A stretch of DNA of 46,855 nucleotides from a virus. The notes beneath the pieces were generated by a model. That model did not search any database and was not told the origin of the DNA. It saw nothing but the letters and a program-made list of their open reading frames with translations. The DNA lies in the IMG/VR virus record IMGVR_UViG_3300045928_000117, positions 1 to 46,855 of that record, one strand, 5' to 3'. The position numbers and the translations under genes were made by a program. Of the stretch, positions 1,026-9,983 are shown piece by piece (within the stretch, counting starts at the first letter, position 1; each line of letters starts with the position of its first letter).

Positions 1026-2272
1026 CTCTCTTCGCCCCATTCCCCTGGTTCGGCGGAAAGCGCCGCATCGCCCCGATGGTGTGGGAGCGGCTCGGCGACG
1101 TCGCCAGCTACAACGAGCCGTTCGCCGGCAGCCTGGCCGTGCTGCTCGGCCGCCCGACGGAACCGCGCATCGAGACCGTCAACGACCTCGACTGTTACCT
1201 GTCGAACTTCTGGCGGGCGCTGCGTGAGGCCCCAGAACGTGTCGCTGAGTGGGCCGACTATCCCGTGAACGAGGTGGACCTTCATGCGCGACACCGCTGG
1301 CTCGTCGAGCAGAAGGACTTCCGGGAGCGGATGCGACGCGACCCGGACTACTTCGACGCCAAGGTCGCCGGCTGGTGGGTGTGGGGCCAGTGCTTGTGGA
1401 TCGGATCTGGCTGGTGCGAGGCGACCGAGCCGCCGGCTGAACACGAGCGGCCAGAGTCGATGTCGAATGTCGCGAAGGGTGTCAACAAGGCCGAGTGGAC
1501 AGGGCGCGCGAATGCCGGCCGGTATGCGCGCGGCATCAACGCGGAGCGCGTCCAGTTCAATCGAAACGGACAGGGGACAGTCCACCAGCAGCGTCGGCCG
1601 CAGTTATCGAACGACCAAGGCATCGTTACGTGGCAGAAGCGCCCGAAGCTTCGAGGGCGCTGGGACGATGGCATCGCGACCAGGCGGTGGCAGGGCGGCG
1701 GCGCCGGCGGCGGATCAGGTGTACATGCGCCGCGGTTGACGTGGCATCACCAGCAGGCGCCTGACCTCTCCGGTTCGCGTGGCGCCTCTGGGCGAGGCGT
1801 GCATCGACTCGGGCTCTCAGAGGGCCTGCACGGCTACCTCGCGGCGCTCTCGCAGCGACTGCGCCGGGTCCGCGTCTGCTGCGGTGATTGGGAACGCGTG
1901 CTCACGCCATCGGTCACGACCTATATCGGCGTGACCGGCATCTTGTTCGACCCTCCCTACAAGCACGAGCTGCGGTCGCGGTGCTACGCCGTCGACCAGG
2001 ACGTGAGTGCTGATGTGCGCGCGTGGTGCCTCGCGCACGGCGAAGATCCCAAATTACGGATCGCGCTCTGCGGCTACGAGGGCGAGCACGAGATGCCAGA
2101 CACCTGGGAGTGCGTGCCCTGGCGCGCACACGGTGGGTACAGCCGATCCGCCCGTGGGAGGGCGAATCGCGACGCCGAGCGCGTGTGGTTCTCCCCGCAC
2201 TGTCTTCGCCCATCCGATCGGCTTCCACTCGGAGGCGAGCACGAGGAGTCGATGGAGTTCTGTGCATGTTGA
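1022..2272 (+). CDS. dam: D12-class DNA N6-adenine methyltransferase
   Basis: The 416-residue product begins with the Dam/D12 signature WFGGKRRIA (residues about 9-17), followed by NEPFAGSLAVLL (SAM-binding motif I) and a DPPY catalytic motif at about residues 310-313. It should methylate adenine in duplex DNA, either to protect phage DNA from host nucleases or to mark it. GTG 1022 is chosen because it overlaps the previous stop and directly precedes the FGGK motif. Between the two motifs lies a long insert rich in Gly, Arg and Gln (about residues 155-270), larger than in Dam itself, where the target-recognition domain is expected. The pairing with the upstream methyltransferase suggests a protection module. 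Confidence 0.8.
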   Translation: MTLFAPFPWFGGKRRIAPMVWERLGDVASYNEPFAGSLAVLLGRPTEPRIETVNDLDCYLSNFWRALREAPERVAEWADYPVNEVDLHARHRWLVEQKDFRERMRRDPDYFDAKVAGWWVWGQCLWIGSGWCEATEPPAEHERPESMSNVAKGVNKAEWTGRANAGRYARGINAERVQFNRNGQGTVHQQRRPQLSNDQGIVTWQKRPKLRGRWDDGIATRRWQGGGAGGGSGVHAPRLTWHHQQAPDLSGSRGASGRGVHRLGLSEGLHGYLAALSQRLRRVRVCCGDWERVLTPSVTTYIGVTGILFDPPYKHELRSRCYAVDQDVSADVRAWCLAHGEDPKLRIALCGYEGEHEMPDTWECVPWRAHGGYSRSARGRANRDAERVWFSPHCLRPSDRLPLGGEHEESMEFCAC

Positions 2273-4011
2273 AGCTCGCCGAAGACCTGAAACTACCGCT
2301 CGATGCGGTCACGCAAACCATCGCGATCCTCGCGAAACGCCGAGCCGGCAAGAGCTACACGATGCGTCGCCTGGTCGAGCAGCTCGTCAAGGCCGGCCAG
2401 CAGGTCGTCCTCGTGGACCCAAAGGGCGACCAGCACGGCATCCGCTCATCAGCCGATGGGAAGGGCCCTGGTCTGCCGGTCATCATCCTCGGCGGCGAGC
2501 ACGCGGATGTGCCGCTCGAATCAGGCGGGGGCGAGGTGGTGGCGAAGCTCGTGGTTGAGGAGCGGGTCAACATCGTCATCGACCTCTCGCTCTTCAGGAA
2601 GCACGAGGTCGCGACGTTCATGACGGGCTTCCTTGAGAACCTGTATCGCCTGAAGGCGCGCGAAGCCTACCGCACGCCGGTGATGCTGGTGATTGACGAG
2701 GCCGACGCAGTCGCGCCACAGAAGCCGCAGAAGGGCGAGGAGCGCATGCTCGGCGCCGCCGAGGACATCGTGCGCCGCGGCGGTCAGCGCGGCATCGGCT
2801 GCACGCTTGTGAGTCAGCGTAGTGCCGTCCTGAACAAAAACGTCCTGACCCAGGCGCAGATCCTCGTGGCACTCCGGACGATCGCGCCGCAGGACCTCGA
2901 CGCGATGAAGGCCTGGATAGACGTCCACGGCAGCGAGGACGAGCGGAGGATGCTGATGTCGTCACTGCCGTCGCTGCCGGTCGGTGACGCCTGGTTCTGG
3001 TCGCCGGGATGGCCAACCGTCGACGGGATCTTCCGGCGCGTCCATGTGCTGCCGATCGAAACATTCGACTCTGGCGCGACGCCTGAGCCAGGGAAGAAGC
3101 GGTCCGAGCCGAAGGCGGTCGCGGAGGTCGACATCGACGCGCTCCGGAAGCACATGGCGGCGACGATTGAGAAGGCGAAGGCGGATGACCCGCGTGAGCT
3201 CAGGAAGCGGATCGCCGAGTTGGAGCGGCAGGTTCGGAATACTGGTACTCCGCAATCCGGAAAATCCCCATTCCGCGAGCCGAAGGTCGTCGAGAAGCCG
3301 GTCGTCACCGACGCGCAGCTCGCCCGGCTGGAAAAGCAGACCGCGGCCGTGACTGCGGCACTCGATCGCGCGGCCTCCATCTTCGCCAAACCGCTCGGGC
3401 CGCTCGCCGAGTCCTGCCAGAGGCTGGCGTCGGCGGTGAATCTGGTGCGCCGGCCGGCGCCATCACATGCCCACGTCAACAACAGCACTGGGGCGAGGAG
3501 TCCGGTTCAACCGCGTGGTGGATCGGCTCCTCGCCCGCGGGGTGACGCGTCAGACTCGAAGCTCCCGCCGGGAGAGAAGGCCACGCTCATCGCGGCCGCG
3601 CAGTATCCAGATGGCCTGACGCGCGAGCAGGCGAGCATCCTCACCGGCTACAAGCGGTCGTCGCGCGATGCGTACATCCAGCGGCTCGTCGGCCGCGGCT
3701 ACGTCGAGGTCGCCAGCAACCTGGTCGTTGCGACCGAGGCAGGCGTCGCCGCGCTGGGTGAGGCCTTCGAACCGCTGCCGACAGGCGAGGCGCTCCGGTC
3801 GTACTGGCTGAACCGGTTGCCGCCAGGCGAGAAGGCGGTCCTCGAGATCGCGATCGAACACTACCCGCACGACGTCCTGCGCGAACGCATCGACCAGAGC
3901 ACCGGCTACAAGCGCTCGAGCAGGGACGCCTACATCCAACGACTGATTTCGCGCCGGCTGCTTTCGGCCGGACGCGGCACGGTCCGAGCCACCGAGGTGC
4001 TCTTCGAATGA
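2266..4011 (+). CDS. HerA/FtsK-type ATPase with two C-terminal winged-helix repeats
   Basis: Residues 1-270 form a RecA-fold ATPase of the HerA/VirB4 class: Walker A AKRRAGKS (Lys about 29), Walker B VMLVIDEAD (Asp about 144), then an SQR segment (sensor-like) after RRGGQRGIG. A Glu/Arg-rich coiled coil covers about 370-400. The C-terminus has two copies of one winged-helix domain, each starting LPPGEKA (about residues 433 and 518) and each holding TGYKRSSRDAYIQRL. It probably moves on or pumps DNA; its job in this phage is unknown, with replication, resolution or anti-defence all possible. ATG 2266 overlaps the methyltransferase end by 7 bases, suggesting one operon. Confidence 0.75.
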   Translation: MLKLAEDLKLPLDAVTQTIAILAKRRAGKSYTMRRLVEQLVKAGQQVVLVDPKGDQHGIRSSADGKGPGLPVIILGGEHADVPLESGGGEVVAKLVVEERVNIVIDLSLFRKHEVATFMTGFLENLYRLKAREAYRTPVMLVIDEADAVAPQKPQKGEERMLGAAEDIVRRGGQRGIGCTLVSQRSAVLNKNVLTQAQILVALRTIAPQDLDAMKAWIDVHGSEDERRMLMSSLPSLPVGDAWFWSPGWPTVDGIFRRVHVLPIETFDSGATPEPGKKRSEPKAVAEVDIDALRKHMAATIEKAKADDPRELRKRIAELERQVRNTGTPQSGKSPFREPKVVEKPVVTDAQLARLEKQTAAVTAALDRAASIFAKPLGPLAESCQRLASAVNLVRRPAPSHAHVNNSTGARSPVQPRGGSAPRPRGDASDSKLPPGEKATLIAAAQYPDGLTREQASILTGYKRSSRDAYIQRLVGRGYVEVASNLVVATEAGVAALGEAFEPLPTGEALRSYWLNRLPPGEKAVLEIAIEHYPHDVLRERIDQSTGYKRSSRDAYIQRLISRRLLSAGRGTVRATEVLFE

Positions 4012-4538
4012 TTACCCTGGCTGAGAAGCGGGAGCGCCAGCGGCTGGCGACGGCGAGATATCGAGCGAGGCACCATGAGCGCCTCCGACTGTCACGCCTC
4101 CGTCCGCATCGACCGCTTCCACCGGCGATCGATCGTTTCTGGAGTCGCGTCGAGAAGCGCGAGGACGGATGCTGGGCGTGGACTGGCGGGCTCGGATCGC
4201 AGGGCTACGGCAACATCATCGACGACGCCAAGAAGCGAATCTACGCCCACCGCTTCTCGTATTCGATGTTTCGTGGAGACATCCCGCCAGGCCTTGAACT
4301 CGACCACCTGTGCCGCGTTCGTCGGTGCGTGAATCCGGACCACCTTGAAGTTGTCACGCGGAAGGTGAATAGCGACCGTGGCTTCGGACCATCCGGCATC
4401 AACAGCCGGAAGACGCACTGTATTCGAGGACATCCATTCGACGCCGCCAACACCGCGATCTACATCAGGAACGGTCGCCAAATTAGGCAATGCAAACAAT
4501 GCGGTCGCATTCGGCTGCGTCATTGGAGGAAACGGTAG
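4008..4538 (+). CDS. HNH endonuclease (free-standing, homing type)
   Basis: The 176-residue protein has a basic N-terminal helix, a CWAWTGGLGSQGYG strand pair, AHRFSYSMF, and the HNH core LELDHLCRVRRCVNPDHLEVV with the catalytic His in DHLC and the metal-site His in PDHLE. A Cys pair near the C-terminus (CIRGH and CKQCGR) suggests a zinc finger. Enzymes of this group nick or cut DNA and spread their own gene by homing. It sits between the ATPase and the next early gene with ATGA overlap at its start and TAGTG at its end, so it is carried within the operon. It is one of four HNH genes here. Confidence 0.85.
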   Translation: MITLAEKRERQRLATARYRARHHERLRLSRLRPHRPLPPAIDRFWSRVEKREDGCWAWTGGLGSQGYGNIIDDAKKRIYAHRFSYSMFRGDIPPGLELDHLCRVRRCVNPDHLEVVTRKVNSDRGFGPSGINSRKTHCIRGHPFDAANTAIYIRNGRQIRQCKQCGRIRLRHWRKR

Positions 4539-5425
4539 TGAAAGAGAGCAACGGCGTCAGGATGCGGTGCGATCAATGTAGCTGGACGTGCGTGATGCGG
4601 GCCGAGAACGAACTGCCTTCCGGTTGCAACCACATGGAAGAGGGCGTGCCGTTCTGCCCGAATTGCAATCTACGAATGGTGCCGGCAGGGTCGGTGCCCG
4701 CGCGCGATCCGGCGCCAGTGATCGAGTTCCCCGGCGCGAAGTATCCCGGGGCCTCGGCGTCGCCAGGGCTCGGGGAAGGCCTCCCGTTAGCCGATCGCCT
4801 CGCGAAGATTCGGGAGGCCGAGCGCGAAGTCACCGAGGCAGAGGAGGACTGGGAGGACGCGAAGAAGGACGCGGCCGACGCAAAGAAGGTCTTCGACGGC
4901 AAGGTCACCACGCTGCGCACCCTGATCGAACGGCTCACGTCGGTCACAGCGCCTGCGCCGCTTCCGCTGTTCGATGCACCACCGGCCGAGTCACAGGCCA
5001 AGACGACGTGCGGCGCGATCGGTCCGGATGGCCATACCTGCACGCTCGGACCCGACCACGACAACCGGCACAAGCACGTCGTCGCCGATGCCGTGACTGG
5101 CGATGGGATCGAGGAGCTGGCGATCACCTGGGCGAACGAGGCCGAGGCGATGGCGGCGATCGTGGACGAGACGCACGCCTGCTTCCATCTCGGGCCTGAC
5201 AACGTCTCGCACTGCACCCGCTCGAAGGGGCACGGCGGCCCACACGTCATGCATCACGTGATCGGCGAGGTCTTTGGCCAGGAGCTCGCGCGCTGGCCCC
5301 AGGAGACGCCCCAGGCCGCGAGTGAGCCAGCGGCCGAGGATCAGCCCGCCAAGCCAGAGGACGAGGCGCTGCCGCTGCCGAAGAAACGCGGCCGGCGGCA
5401 CGAGGCGGAAGCGGCGCACGCGTAG
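4538..5425 (+). CDS. Multi-zinc-finger phage protein with central coiled coil
   Basis: GTG 4538 is chosen because a strong GGAGGA lies at 4525-4530, seven bases upstream. The 295-residue product starts with a zinc-ribbon-like region (CDQC, later CPNC, about residues 10-45), then a charged helix rich in Glu, Asp and Lys (about 90-135) that looks like a coiled coil, then two copies of a Cys/His knuckle of the form C-x(7-8)-H-x-C-x(5)-H-x(4)-H around CTLGPDHDNRHKH and CTRSKGHGGPH. The end is Lys/Arg-rich. No enzyme domain is visible. A nucleic-acid-binding role is an inference from the zinc motifs and its place among replication genes. Confidence 0.65.
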   Translation: MKESNGVRMRCDQCSWTCVMRAENELPSGCNHMEEGVPFCPNCNLRMVPAGSVPARDPAPVIEFPGAKYPGASASPGLGEGLPLADRLAKIREAEREVTEAEEDWEDAKKDAADAKKVFDGKVTTLRTLIERLTSVTAPAPLPLFDAPPAESQAKTTCGAIGPDGHTCTLGPDHDNRHKHVVADAVTGDGIEELAITWANEAEAMAAIVDETHACFHLGPDNVSHCTRSKGHGGPHVMHHVIGEVFGQELARWPQETPQAASEPAAEDQPAKPEDEALPLPKKRGRRHEAEAAHA

Positions 5426-5444: not shown

Positions 5445-6314
5445 ATGGGCTTCGTCACCCTGGACGACAACTTCTCGAACCACCCGAAGGTGGTGTCGGC
5501 CCGCACGCAGGAACGGACCGCTGTTGACCTGTACGTGTGCGGACTGTGCTACTGCCGGCGATACAACACGGAGGGGTTCATTCAGTCAGGCGCCGTCAAC
5601 GGTCTTGGCGTGGCGTCGCCTCGAAAAGCCGTAGACGCATTGGTCTCGGCTCGCCTCTGGGACAGAGTCGACGGCGGGTTCGCCATCCACGACTACGCCT
5701 CCTGGTACCCGACAGACGACGCTCAGAAGGTCATCCGAGACGAGCTCAGGGAGAAGAAGCGGGCGGCTGGTCGAAAGGGTGGTCTGAGGTCATGGGAGGT
5801 CCGTTCTGCTTCAAGCACATCCGAAGCAGAAGTCGAAGCAGATTCGAAGCAGCCTGCTTCAAGTAGTGCTTCAACCTCTGCTCCAGCCCACAGTGGAGAG
5901 GGAGTCGGGATCGGATCTGCTTCAGTTCTTGGGGAAGGGGGTCTGGGGGGAACCGCTCCGCCGCTCGATCGCTGGTTCTTGGAGCTTTGCGATCGATACC
6001 CGGCGAACCGAGTGACGAGGGGTCGTCTGACGGAAGGCTTTTGGATTGAGCAGTTTCAGAAGGATCACCGTCCACCTTCCGACGTCTGGGCCGACATCCA
6101 GGACGGTCTTGCGAACCAGCTCGCCGGCCATGAATGGCGCGTCAAAGGCATGGTCCCGAAGCTCGAGAAGTGGCTGCGCGACGGATTGTGGCGGCAACGA
6201 CACGACCCAGAGCCGCCGGCGGCGGAGCGGATGACGCGCTCGACCGCCACGACGTTCGGTGCTGCGGCCGAGATTCTCAACGCGCCCGACGTGCCAGGGA
6301 CGGATCGGCGATGA
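5445..6314 (+). CDS. Phage replication-initiation-like protein (winged-helix N-terminus)
   Basis: ATG 5445 follows a GAGGGA Shine-Dalgarno. The N-terminal 120 residues match a domain common in phage replication proteins: TLDDNFSNHPKVV, LYVCGLCYCRR, then AVDALVSARLW and FAIHDYASWYPT, and a basic AGRKGG linker. A Ser/Glu-rich low-complexity stretch follows (about 120-175), then a second helical domain (FLELCDRYPANRVTRGR). This layout resembles replisome organisers that bind the origin and recruit a helicase loader; the following gene fits that partner. It ends with an ATGA overlap. Family recognition is from motif memory. Confidence 0.6.
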   Translation: MGFVTLDDNFSNHPKVVSARTQERTAVDLYVCGLCYCRRYNTEGFIQSGAVNGLGVASPRKAVDALVSARLWDRVDGGFAIHDYASWYPTDDAQKVIRDELREKKRAAGRKGGLRSWEVRSASSTSEAEVEADSKQPASSSASTSAPAHSGEGVGIGSASVLGEGGLGGTAPPLDRWFLELCDRYPANRVTRGRLTEGFWIEQFQKDHRPPSDVWADIQDGLANQLAGHEWRVKGMVPKLEKWLRDGLWRQRHDPEPPAAERMTRSTATTFGAAAEILNAPDVPGTDRR

Positions 6315-6724
6315 ACCTCCACGAGTGCACGATTGCGCTTGCCACGCTCGCGAAGGCGCTCGGCGCGACCCTCGATGGGCCAACGTTCAGGGCGTACCAC
6401 CAGGCGCTTTCGGATGTTCCGGCTGGTGTGTTCGAGGCGGCGTGCATGGTTGCCGCGCGTGCGCCTCGGCAGCCGTTCGAGCCAAAGTTTCCGACGGCGC
6501 CGACGCTGCGGCAACTCGCCGAAGGCGCCCGCCGCGACGTAGTTGACCGGATGAAATGGGCACCCTGCGAAGCGTGTATCGACCAACACGGCTGGGTCAC
6601 CCGAGACGACGGTCGTGTCGAGCGGTGTGCGTGCTGGAAGGCGCACCAGCAGCGGATCGCGACGACCGGTCTGGCCACGCCGTTGGCTCTACCGGCGCCG
6701 GAGCCAGCTGAGGAGGTCGCGTGA
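6311..6724 (+). CDS. Small zinc protein, possible helicase-loader-like partner
   Basis: The 137-residue protein has an N-terminal helical domain (LHECTIALATLAKALGATLDG through RAYHQALSDVPAG), then a loop of the APRQPFEPKFPTAPTLRQLA type seen in phage replication accessory proteins related to helicase loaders or loader inhibitors. A C-terminal zinc ribbon is built from CEAC and CAC (about residues 83-108). It overlaps the initiator-like gene by ATGA and its stop overlaps the remnant of the resolvase start, so it belongs to the replication operon. A role in loading a host helicase is an inference. Confidence 0.55.
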   Translation: MNLHECTIALATLAKALGATLDGPTFRAYHQALSDVPAGVFEAACMVAARAPRQPFEPKFPTAPTLRQLAEGARRDVVDRMKWAPCEACIDQHGWVTRDDGRVERCACWKAHQQRIATTGLATPLALPAPEPAEEVA

Positions 6725-6759
6725 TCACATTCCGCCTCTCGTGCGTGCCGCCGAAGGCT
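6721..6759 (+). pseudogene. Orphaned 5' end of the RusA-type resolvase gene
   Basis: GTG 6721 overlaps the upstream TGA as GTGA, just like a real gene start here. Its first 13 codons read VITFRLSCVPPKA, nearly the same peptide as GIVFRLACIPPKT at 7307-7348 in the intact resolvase gene. At 6760 the sequence passes straight into the stop codon of an antisense HNH gene. The plain reading is that this is the original start of the resolvase gene, cut off by the insertion, with a replacement start on the far side. Confidence 0.65.
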
Positions 6760-7260
6760 TCAATCTTCGACGTGCGCCCACGTCTTGCGTTGAACAACAT
6801 TACGGACGGTGTTTTCACCGCAACGGAAGGCCCTCGCGAGCGAGGCGATGGATGTACCACGCTGGTGCTGATCACGCATGATGCGGACCGCATCAACAGA
6901 AAGCAACGAAAGACCTTGTTTCTCACCCTTCGAGGTGCGGCCCTTCTTGTCTCGATCGTCGTTGTTGTCAGCGGCCGTGCCGAGGAACAAGTGCGCCGGG
7001 TTGACGCACGCGCGAACGTCACAGGTGTGGCAAACAAAGACGTCGGCTGGAACATCGGCCTTATTGAACAACTTGTAAGCCATGCGGTGAGCCGGAGTGA
7101 GGCGCCGCTGGTTGTGTCCGACGCGCACCGTGGTCCTTCCATAACCTGTTTTGGGGTCCGTGAAGCCGGTCCACAACCAGCACCAGTCTGTGACCTCGAC
7201 GTGTCGCATAAAGCGGGAGAGCCTATCCATCTCACTGTGAACGTAAACACCGGTGGGCAT
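6760..7260 (-). CDS. HNH endonuclease inserted antisense at the resolvase start
   Basis: The 166-residue protein has CWLWTGFTDPKTGYGR, AHRMAYKLF, and the HNH core VFVCHTCDVRACVNPAHLFLG, followed by a C-terminal helix-turn-helix (SIASLARAFRCGENTVRNVV) typical of homing endonucleases that bind long targets. It reads against its neighbours. ATG 7260 has AGGAG eight bases upstream on its own strand. Base use is less GC-rich than the neighbours, for example near the junctions, which fits recent arrival. Its stop codon abuts the remnant resolvase start exactly. Confidence 0.88.
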   Translation of the reverse strand: MPTGVYVHSEMDRLSRFMRHVEVTDWCWLWTGFTDPKTGYGRTTVRVGHNQRRLTPAHRMAYKLFNKADVPADVFVCHTCDVRACVNPAHLFLGTAADNNDDRDKKGRTSKGEKQGLSLLSVDAVRIMRDQHQRGTSIASLARAFRCGENTVRNVVQRKTWAHVED

Positions 7261-7285
7261 CCAGATGTCTCCTGAGTTTGCGCCG

Positions 7286-7792
7286 ATGGTAGCACCAGTT
7301 AAAGCCGGAATTGTGTTCCGTCTCGCCTGTATTCCGCCAAAAACAAGCCATCACGCCAAGCACATCGTCCGGCTGAAGACGAAGGAGGGCCGCCAGTTCA
7401 GCACGCTCGCCGACAACGCACCCTTGGTCGCCGCCAAGGCACTGCTTGAGGAGCTCCTGCTGCCACATCAGCCGGCGTCGCCGATAGCTGGCGCCGTCGC
7501 GCTCTCGCTCGAGTTCACCTGGCCGTGGTCGTCGGACCATCGGAAGCGAGACCGCGCGCTCGGGCGGATGGTACACACCGGTCACGTCGACCTGACGAAC
7601 GTCACGAAGACCATTGAGGACCGGCTCAAGGTGCTCCGGTTTATCGAGGACGACTGCTTCGTCGTCGAGCTCCACGTCCGGAAGTGGTGGGGCGCCGAGC
7701 CGGGTATCGTCGTCGCCATCGCGCCGGCGGGGTCGCCGCAGTCATGGGCCGCTCCGTCGGTGTCCGCGCCGTCACTCTTCGAAGCGCGGTGA
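7286..7792 (+). CDS. rusA: RusA-like Holliday junction resolvase
   Basis: The C-terminal half matches RusA-type endonucleases: HVDLTNVTKTIEDRL (the place of the conserved Asp-x-Asn motif), IEDDCFVVELHVRKWWG (the DD and Lys of the active site) and PGIVVAI at the end. RusA dimers cut four-way junctions; phages use them in recombination and before packaging. The family normally starts shortly before a strand like FRLACIPPK, so ATG 7286 is preferred over GTG 7253 or ATG 7265. No Shine-Dalgarno is visible, and the first codons are AT-richer than the rest, as expected if they came with the adjacent HNH element. The stop overlaps the next start (TGATG). Confidence 0.7.
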   Translation: MVAPVKAGIVFRLACIPPKTSHHAKHIVRLKTKEGRQFSTLADNAPLVAAKALLEELLLPHQPASPIAGAVALSLEFTWPWSSDHRKRDRALGRMVHTGHVDLTNVTKTIEDRLKVLRFIEDDCFVVELHVRKWWGAEPGIVVAIAPAGSPQSWAAPSVSAPSLFEAR

Positions 7793-8076
7793 TGCCCGCC
7801 GCTGATGCGCTCGACTCACCGACGACGATGACCGACCAGGTGGAAGACCGTCCCCTCACTGTGCGGGAGTGCACGCAGCGGCTTGGTATCTACGGCGTGA
7901 AGTCGATGACGTTCGTCCGGGACGAAATCAAGGCCGGGCGTCTCGAGGCCATCGTCTACCAGCGCGACGGATGCACGCGGTACCACGTGAAGGCATCCGA
8001 CCTCGAGGCCTACATCGCGAAGCACTGGCGGTACACGGGGCCTACGACTAGCACGCGGTCAACGCGGCGCACGTAG
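7792..8076 (+). CDS. Excisionase-like/MerR-type helix-turn-helix protein
   Basis: ATG 7792 shares TGATG with the resolvase stop. The 94-residue product has a winged-helix of the excisionase type: LTVRECTQRLGI, then SMTFVRDEIKAGRLEAIVYQ and RYHVKASDLEAYIAKHW. Such proteins bind short DNA repeats in excision, packaging or transcription control. No integrase is seen, so excision is not the obvious role. The C-terminus runs into a nine-base repeat, giving a Thr/Arg/Ser tail that ends at a TAG inside the repeat. Confidence 0.6.
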   Translation: MPAADALDSPTTMTDQVEDRPLTVRECTQRLGIYGVKSMTFVRDEIKAGRLEAIVYQRDGCTRYHVKASDLEAYIAKHWRYTGPTTSTRSTRRT

Positions 8077-9308: not shown

Positions 9309-9983
9309 ATGATACCGCCAAAAGAAAAGACGTGCCTGCGCTGTGGAGGGTCGTTCGTTGGAACCGGTAACCGTCAGGTCTACTGCAGCCCTGCGTGTCG
9401 GAATCCAGAAGCGACCTGCGTCGTCTGCGGCTCGGTCTTCAATCCGAGTCGCCACGCGAGCAAGGAAACCTGCTCGCACTCTTGCGCCGCGAAGCGGATG
9501 TGGCAGCTTCGCGGCGGTAAGCAAATCGGCCAGTGCAAGCGGTGCGGTGGGCCGTTCGACGCCACCCAACGGAAGGCCTACTGCTCGAAGGCCTGCGCGG
9601 TCGCGGCGAGCATCAAGCGGAGCTCATGTCGTCAGTGCGGCGAACCGTGCAAAGAGTCGCGCGCGAAGTTCTGCTCACATCACTGCAAGGCGGTCTGGCA
9701 GAACGGCAAACGGGGCATCGGTCGCCATCCAGAAGGCGCGATCGTTCCAGCTGGCGGCGACGGCTACCTCCGGATTCGCGTCAACGGCGAGTGGGTGCTC
9801 CACCACCGCTACGTCATGGAGCAAAAGATCGGGCGCCCTCTTGAGCCGTACGAGAACGTGCATCACATCAACGGCCGGAGAGACGACAACCGTCCCGATA
9901 ACCTCGAGCTCTGGAAGCGACGCCAGCCGCACGGCGTTCGCTCCGCCGATTACCACTGCCCAGGCTGTCGCTGCTTTATGTAG
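9309..9983 (+). CDS. HNH endonuclease with tandem Cys zinc fingers
   Basis: The 224-residue product has at least four N-terminal Cys-rich fingers, each of the form C-x2-C ... YCSxxC or CSHxC (residues about 8-125), then a C-terminal HNH domain: YLRIRVNGEWVLHHRYVMEQ and NVHHINGRRDDNRPDNLELW with the catalytic His pair and the Asn-Leu-Glu motif. It resembles phage homing endonucleases that use zinc fingers for target binding. A CPGC motif near the end may be a further finger. It appears to be transcribed from its own leaderless promoter and to have landed just after a virion gene. Confidence 0.88.
   Translation: MIPPKEKTCLRCGGSFVGTGNRQVYCSPACRNPEATCVVCGSVFNPSRHASKETCSHSCAAKRMWQLRGGKQIGQCKRCGGPFDATQRKAYCSKACAVAASIKRSSCRQCGEPCKESRAKFCSHHCKAVWQNGKRGIGRHPEGAIVPAGGDGYLRIRVNGEWVLHHRYVMEQKIGRPLEPYENVHHINGRRDDNRPDNLELWKRRQPHGVRSADYHCPGCRCFM

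Follow-up and report, generated by a model that had tools for sequence, protein, structure and literature searches.

The window analyzed here, 46,855 bases long, is a virus record from IMG/VR. The locus under study comprises a rusA-type gene, an antisense HNH gene that separates it from a second copy of its own start, and the gene upstream. The features are as follows, in window coordinates.

6311-6724, + strand: upstream gene, 137 aa; its stop overlaps the GTG of the old rusA start (GTGA); a homologue of 39% identity occupies the equivalent place in contig L015
6721-6759, + strand: copy 1, VITFRLSCVPPKA, the apparent ancestral rusA start (M/V-ITFRLSCVPPKA), cut off
6721-7275, + strand: frame of the old start, 184 codons, open through the antisense HNH gene to a TGA at 7273-7275
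6760-7260, - strand: HNH homing-type endonuclease gene, 166 aa, with HNH_3 and a C-terminal helix-turn-helix-like region
7261-7306: shared divergent start region, with the HNH Shine-Dalgarno AGGAG at 7273-7269 on the - strand
7265 and 7286, + strand: ATG codons, candidate new rusA starts from sequence; GTG 7253 is also possible
7307-7345, + strand: copy 2, GIVFRLACIPPKT, replacement rusA start, 13 codons; GC3 5/13 vs 129/148 in the gene body
7346-7792, + strand: original body of rusA, from SHHAKHIV... through the stop codon, with conserved resolvase motifs
6760-7345: probable mobile unit, HNH gene plus replacement start, ~586 bp

The downstream ORF was matched by the RusA profiles PF05866 (E 3e-14) and phrog_140 (E 2e-19), and the RusA profile also matched the E. 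coli RusA structure 1q8r. In alignment with relatives the D...N..K and EDD blocks were kept and the N-terminal motif was present. The ORF has the sequence features of a RusA-type Holliday junction resolvase (PF05866), and this activity is predicted for it.

The antisense ORF was matched by HNH_3 (PF13392, E 5e-7, above its cut-off) and phrog_1872 (E 2e-27); the zinc-loop model PF05551 matched it only below that model's cut-off. It carries the core of an HNH (His-Me) homing endonuclease and is a putative enzyme of this kind. Its stop codon abuts copy 1, beginning one base past position 6759, and the TGA of the old frame falls between the two candidate ATG codons. No sigma-70-like consensus site was found for the HNH promoter and no unusual RNA fold was found at the new rusA start. 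Two other HNH genes of the window (4008-4538 and 9309-9983) are on the + strand, as are their neighbors, and no flanking duplication was found for them.

Origin of the two rusA starts

The original prediction held that similar start peptides flank the antisense HNH gene, and this layout was recovered. The coordinates given for copy 1 stood; copy 2 had been placed at 7307-7348, which is one codon (3 bases) too long, the true end being 7345. A motif was derived from nine relatives only and scanned against the 77,058 six-frame 12-mers of the window. Copy 2 ranked first (39.3) and copy 1 second (38.1), with the next site at 28.1, confirming that the pair is not a product of chance. A cruder flank-to-flank peptide test gave P of about 0.002-0.005 for the window pair against swapped HNH loci and P of 0.04 against random intervals of the window, which is repeat-bearing. 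In a first whole-window peptide scan the pair was not among the matches listed, whose places were probably filled by low-complexity matches.

The intact relatives found with homologues from Akkermansia phages and metagenomes (L042/L061, L050/L056, L054/L062, L057-L059, L060, L063, L064 and the Akkermansia phages) each have one start, and the single start of empty-site relatives matches copy 1 in position and codon use. This start reads GTGATC in L050 and L063, and the L050 start shares bases with the upstream stop in the same way as copy 1; on this comparison, therefore, copy 1 is the ancestral rusA start. Two outcomes had been set beforehand as contrary to the prediction: among the relatives found, none lacked an equivalent of copy 1 and none held both copies without the HNH gene.

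The empty-site relatives of the window site are distant ones only, and presence and absence between close relatives was seen for the L079/L078 pair described below. Single-protein scans with rusA, the upstream gene or the TerL/HerA-like gene did not yield a sibling of the window phage with conserved synteny. Plasmids gave no match, and none was found among genome contigs in a rusA profile scan. Because no close DNA relative was found, the window break points were placed from composition and distant homologues. The left edge of the unit was set at 6760 because homology to the single start of relatives ends there, and the right edge at 7345 because codon usage switches at 7345/7346.

The two copies had been said to differ in codons at most third positions, and they were found to agree at 3/13 third positions and 23/39 bases. 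GC3 was 5/13 in copy 2, compared with 0.87 in the body from 7346 (129/148) and 30/33 in the first 33 codons of that body; all eight relatives had 9-12/12 vs 5/12 in copy 2. The switch in codon usage falls at PPKT/S (7345/7346), matching the codon at which copy 1 is truncated. At common amino acids, copy 1 has the third base of the relatives in 36/52 comparisons, against 23/52 with copy 2 (p 0.017, the comparisons not being independent). The tract of copy 2 spans only 13-27 codons, and stretches as rich in AT account for ~1% of other windows; part of its AT-richness could come from the overlapping HNH promoter and leader. Every line of this evidence, modest on so short a tract, is concordant in pointing to arrival of the HNH gene along with a start of foreign codon usage.

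Third positions that match in only 3/13 codons and a foreign GC3 bear out the claim that the arrangement is not a simple target duplication. They also count against a history in which rusA was first duplicated, in tandem or in part, and the HNH gene landed between the copies later, since copy 2 is no drifted version of copy 1. Such a history would account for the presence of two start copies, and paralogous gene ends occur in phages; however, no relative has two starts without the HNH gene, and L078, the empty member of the L078/L079 pair, has one start. Duplication before insertion is considered extremely unlikely.

HNH genes are often found in introns, and the possibility was also considered that the interval is a group I intron, or an intein, with the HNH gene on its opposite strand. 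This reading was rejected: no Rfam match was obtained in 6500-7900 even at E 1, and because the flanks repeat the same codons of the gene, splicing would duplicate the message and not join it. The interval is almost certainly neither an intron nor an intein.

Copy 1 might still function, either through the 184-codon frame at 6721-7275 or as part of a split resolvase, as in T4-type gene-splitting HEG insertions. This frame contains no internal stop, and genes that are split yet working after HEG insertion are known (PMC2988022). Against this, the downstream ORF already holds the full RusA domain with its N-terminal motif, and past copy 1 the frame is the mere complement of HNH codons. A functional copy 1 is judged very unlikely.

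Sibling contigs with occupied and empty sites

Contig L079 was found in a search for relatives of the TerL/HerA-like gene of the window (2023-4008). Its near-identical sibling contig L078 lacks the insertion and has one start. The two sites, both in a HerA-type ATPase gene, are as follows.

L079, 4720-7103: occupied site
L078, 7190-8950: empty site

In L079 an antisense HNH gene (phrog_374, a family unlike that of the window HNH gene) splits MLKLAKDLVLPLEAVTQTIA (4720-4779) from a new ATG at 5346, MKSLRIAKDLTLPLDAVTQTIAI... To the left, the two contigs are 100% identical over ~380 bp up to L079 base 4772, inside copy 1. To the right of the HNH gene, identity is 65% in the adjoining sequence, 75-77% over the next 120 bp and ~90% to 6485, beyond which no mismatch was found for >10 kb. 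The diverged tract of 1140 bp contains 154 mismatches, 122 of them at third positions. Third-position mismatches were at 32/60 in the first 60 codons beside the HNH gene vs 90/320 in the codons that follow (p 2e-4).

This pattern reads as the signature of homing with one-sided co-conversion, and the pair shows that an HNH gene and a replacement start can arrive jointly. The imported end appears hyper-diverged synonymously beside the insertion, which fits loss of the cleavage site in a recoded end. L079 could in principle be a chimeric assembly; both joints are in frame and coding, and this was counted against a chimeric contig. Together with the foreign codons of copy 2 and the single-start relatives, the L079/L078 parallel supports the original proposal that the window element brought its own recoded N-terminus.

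The window gene used in this search gave a TerL-like match (phrog_2666). Its relatives carry HerA/DUF87 domains (PF01935, PF05872); HerA domains were seen in the L079 homologue, and 'hera helicase' is the name in MW202482. Because relatives have these domains, the product of 2023-4008 may not be a terminase but a HerA-type ATPase.

Recurrence in other genes

The flank-to-flank peptide test was applied in a survey of 109 loci centered on relatives of the window HNH gene (80 viral, 29 from genomes). The null from swapped pairs had a 99% value of 51 and a maximum of 59. Four counted loci scored above the null maximum (L064, 83; L079, 79; L110, 68; L191, 68), and the window pair scored 55. L110 and L191 were picked out by the survey; L064 and L079 had been fetched earlier for other reasons.

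In L110 an antisense HNH gene lies in an SU10-adaptor-type gene, with the old start MAINTFATLKTAVANW, the HNH stop next to it and a new ATG at 2449. The HNH gene of L191 (Paenibacillus cremeus) is in the sense orientation; the host gene terminates in ...YKKGRRDIFQEYGK, and beyond the HNH stop comes the old end ...YKRGRRDVFQEYGS; this 3' end is single-copy in two related genomes. In L064 a sense HNH gene is fused in frame to the old end APEGIHSRLSCPGC and the 3' end is replaced, the layout indicating which end is old. Starts are thus replaced beside an antisense HNH gene in the window, L079 and L110, and 3' ends beside a sense HNH gene, as the mirror image, in L064 and L191. The order in all five cases is gene body, replacement end, 5'-HNH-3' and dead old end, and in all five the dead end abuts or is fused with the HNH stop, within ~0-3 nt. 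The original interpretation of rusA is supported by these apparent parallels in four other genes.

The position of the dead end bears on whether the replacement end is fixed cargo. It could instead be a repair accident, in which a donor HNH gene lying just outside a gene end was copied in and the donor end came with it by one-sided co-conversion. The imported tract of L079, reaching 1.14 kb into the gene body on one side only and so beyond an end, favors an accident, as does the ~10% divergence over most of that tract, which resembles an ordinary donor allele. However, accidents should not place the dead end so precisely at the HNH stop in 5/5 cases, divergence in L079 peaks beside the HNH gene, and the foreign codon usage of the window ends at the cut codon. 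An accident of repair is considered unlikely on balance.

L189 reached 61 in the first test, but its match ran only along a long stretch of low complexity, and it was left out of the count. Weaker flank matches were checked and not counted in L166, L171/L172, L157, L139 and L250. L180/L223 was also left out, its duplication being a terminator-like/RBS stretch and not codons. A further sample of 60 HNH_3 loci, of which 49 were located, yielded no new case; replacement ends are therefore uncommon, at about 1-2% of HNH_3 loci as detectable by the flank test.

Where starts are replaced (the window, L079 and L110), HNH codons and the old frame share a register; only a TTA, CTA or TCA codon in the HNH gene would close the old frame, and none of the three HNH genes uses one. 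The old frame ends at the new start, through an ATGA overlap in L079 and with a TAG a few bases before the ATG in L110. The chance of a stop-free frame, calculated from codon usage, was about 0.25 for the window, 0.19 for L079 and about 2e-4 for L110; of 32 HNH genes with <45% GC, one (that of L110) is open. Openness of the window frame alone is not significant, and is unremarkable at the GC content of the window. The open frames suggest, by a post hoc test, selection for ribosome passage and reinitiation, and the stopping of the old frame at the new start suggests translational coupling.

A possible start case in the sense orientation was seen at L150:2270-3875, where the HNH ORF starts with MSGLSIIGAE and the ATPase-like gene that follows starts with MSMLPIISAD. 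It scored 35 (P about 0.04); it is unproven and, if real, would break the polarity rule. At L180:2397-2440 and 2955-2998 (Halomonas elongata) an HNH gene lies between diverged copies (77%) of a GCCGCC..GGCGGC stretch plus RBS, a duplication that is regulatory rather than coding.

Proposed mechanism and known systems

The interval 6760-7345 is probably a homing element made up of the HNH gene and synonymously recoded first codons of its target, rusA. An ancestor with a single rusA start at 6721 would have been cut within or next to the PPK-T/A-S codons, and the break repaired from a donor that carried the HNH gene and the donor's rusA end. Of the old start a dead stub of 13 codons would have remained, and ATG 7265 or 7286 would have become the new start of the unchanged body from 7346. 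The recoded end would be immune to cleavage and would travel with the HNH gene as fixed cargo. Through coupling to the upstream gene, ribosomes could load at the old start, translate across the complement of the HNH gene and terminate at the new start; such read-through and reinitiation would keep rusA expression coupled to the operon.

A wider proposal is evenly balanced between being right and wrong: that a recurrent class of phage HNH genes survives in important genes by carrying a recoded end, always 5' of the HNH gene and with the dead end at the HNH stop, and that in the start cases TTA/CTA/TCA codons are kept out of the antisense HNH gene, letting ribosomes from the old start cross and reinitiate. 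Recoded rescue copies are used in synthetic homing drives, and to our knowledge are known in nature mainly from fungal mitochondria.

Mitochondrial genes that carry replacement ends of their host gene had been named as a parallel, and such fungal cases are documented: mobile ORFs with foreign gene ends occur in Allomyces atp6 and in Glomus atp6, atp9, cox2 and nad3, with replacement C-termini and mostly synonymous divergence (PMC3630166). In these an endonuclease gene within a protein gene carries a diverged end that is fused to the host gene, and the native end lies beyond the endonuclease. The window is alike, with the HNH gene between native and foreign rusA starts and the foreign copy in frame with the body. 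The fungal elements are LAGLIDADG or GIY-YIG genes and replace the C-terminus, whereas the window has a phage HNH gene, in antisense, and a replaced N-terminus; the C-terminal analogues are L064 and L191. In this comparison an open frame through the HNH complement, ending at the new start, is found in the window only.

Gene-splitting HEG insertions in T4-like phages, such as mobE in nrdA and mobA in the topoisomerase gene (PMC2988022), are likewise free-standing HNH homing genes that interrupt an important phage gene with no intron or intein. They split the host protein into two working pieces, whereas in the window the severed end is replaced and a single ORF results; the downstream rusA ORF is full length and not one of two complementary polypeptides. 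I-HmuI-like phage HNH enzymes (e.g. of Skunavirus, PMC12724721) belong to the same broad enzyme class by Pfam/PHROG match, with an HNH core, a zinc-loop region and a C-terminal DNA-binding region. Their genes are usually intronic or intergenic, and no mention of replacement gene ends was found in the passages covered. A literature search found no report of replacement ends in phages or at an N-terminus; most subscription papers lay outside the search, and such absence is not proof.

The element would represent a third way for a homing endonuclease to lie inside an important phage gene, beside introns/inteins and tolerated splitting, in that the severed end is brought along and respelled. Elements of this kind could underlie sharp mosaic boundaries where phage genes end, and could account for short orphan duplicate ORFs next to HNH genes; the L078/L079 pair makes the process directly testable.

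At the corresponding locus of L015 (IMGVR_UViG_3300009285_001845, 2028-3138) a homologous rusA is broken by an Hjc/Mrr-like nuclease gene (PF01870, E 9e-6), which lies between the rusA start (...SHHAKRIVRVGK, then a stop) and the last third of the gene. Because this nuclease sits inside rusA, one type of Holliday-junction resolvase may have displaced another in place.
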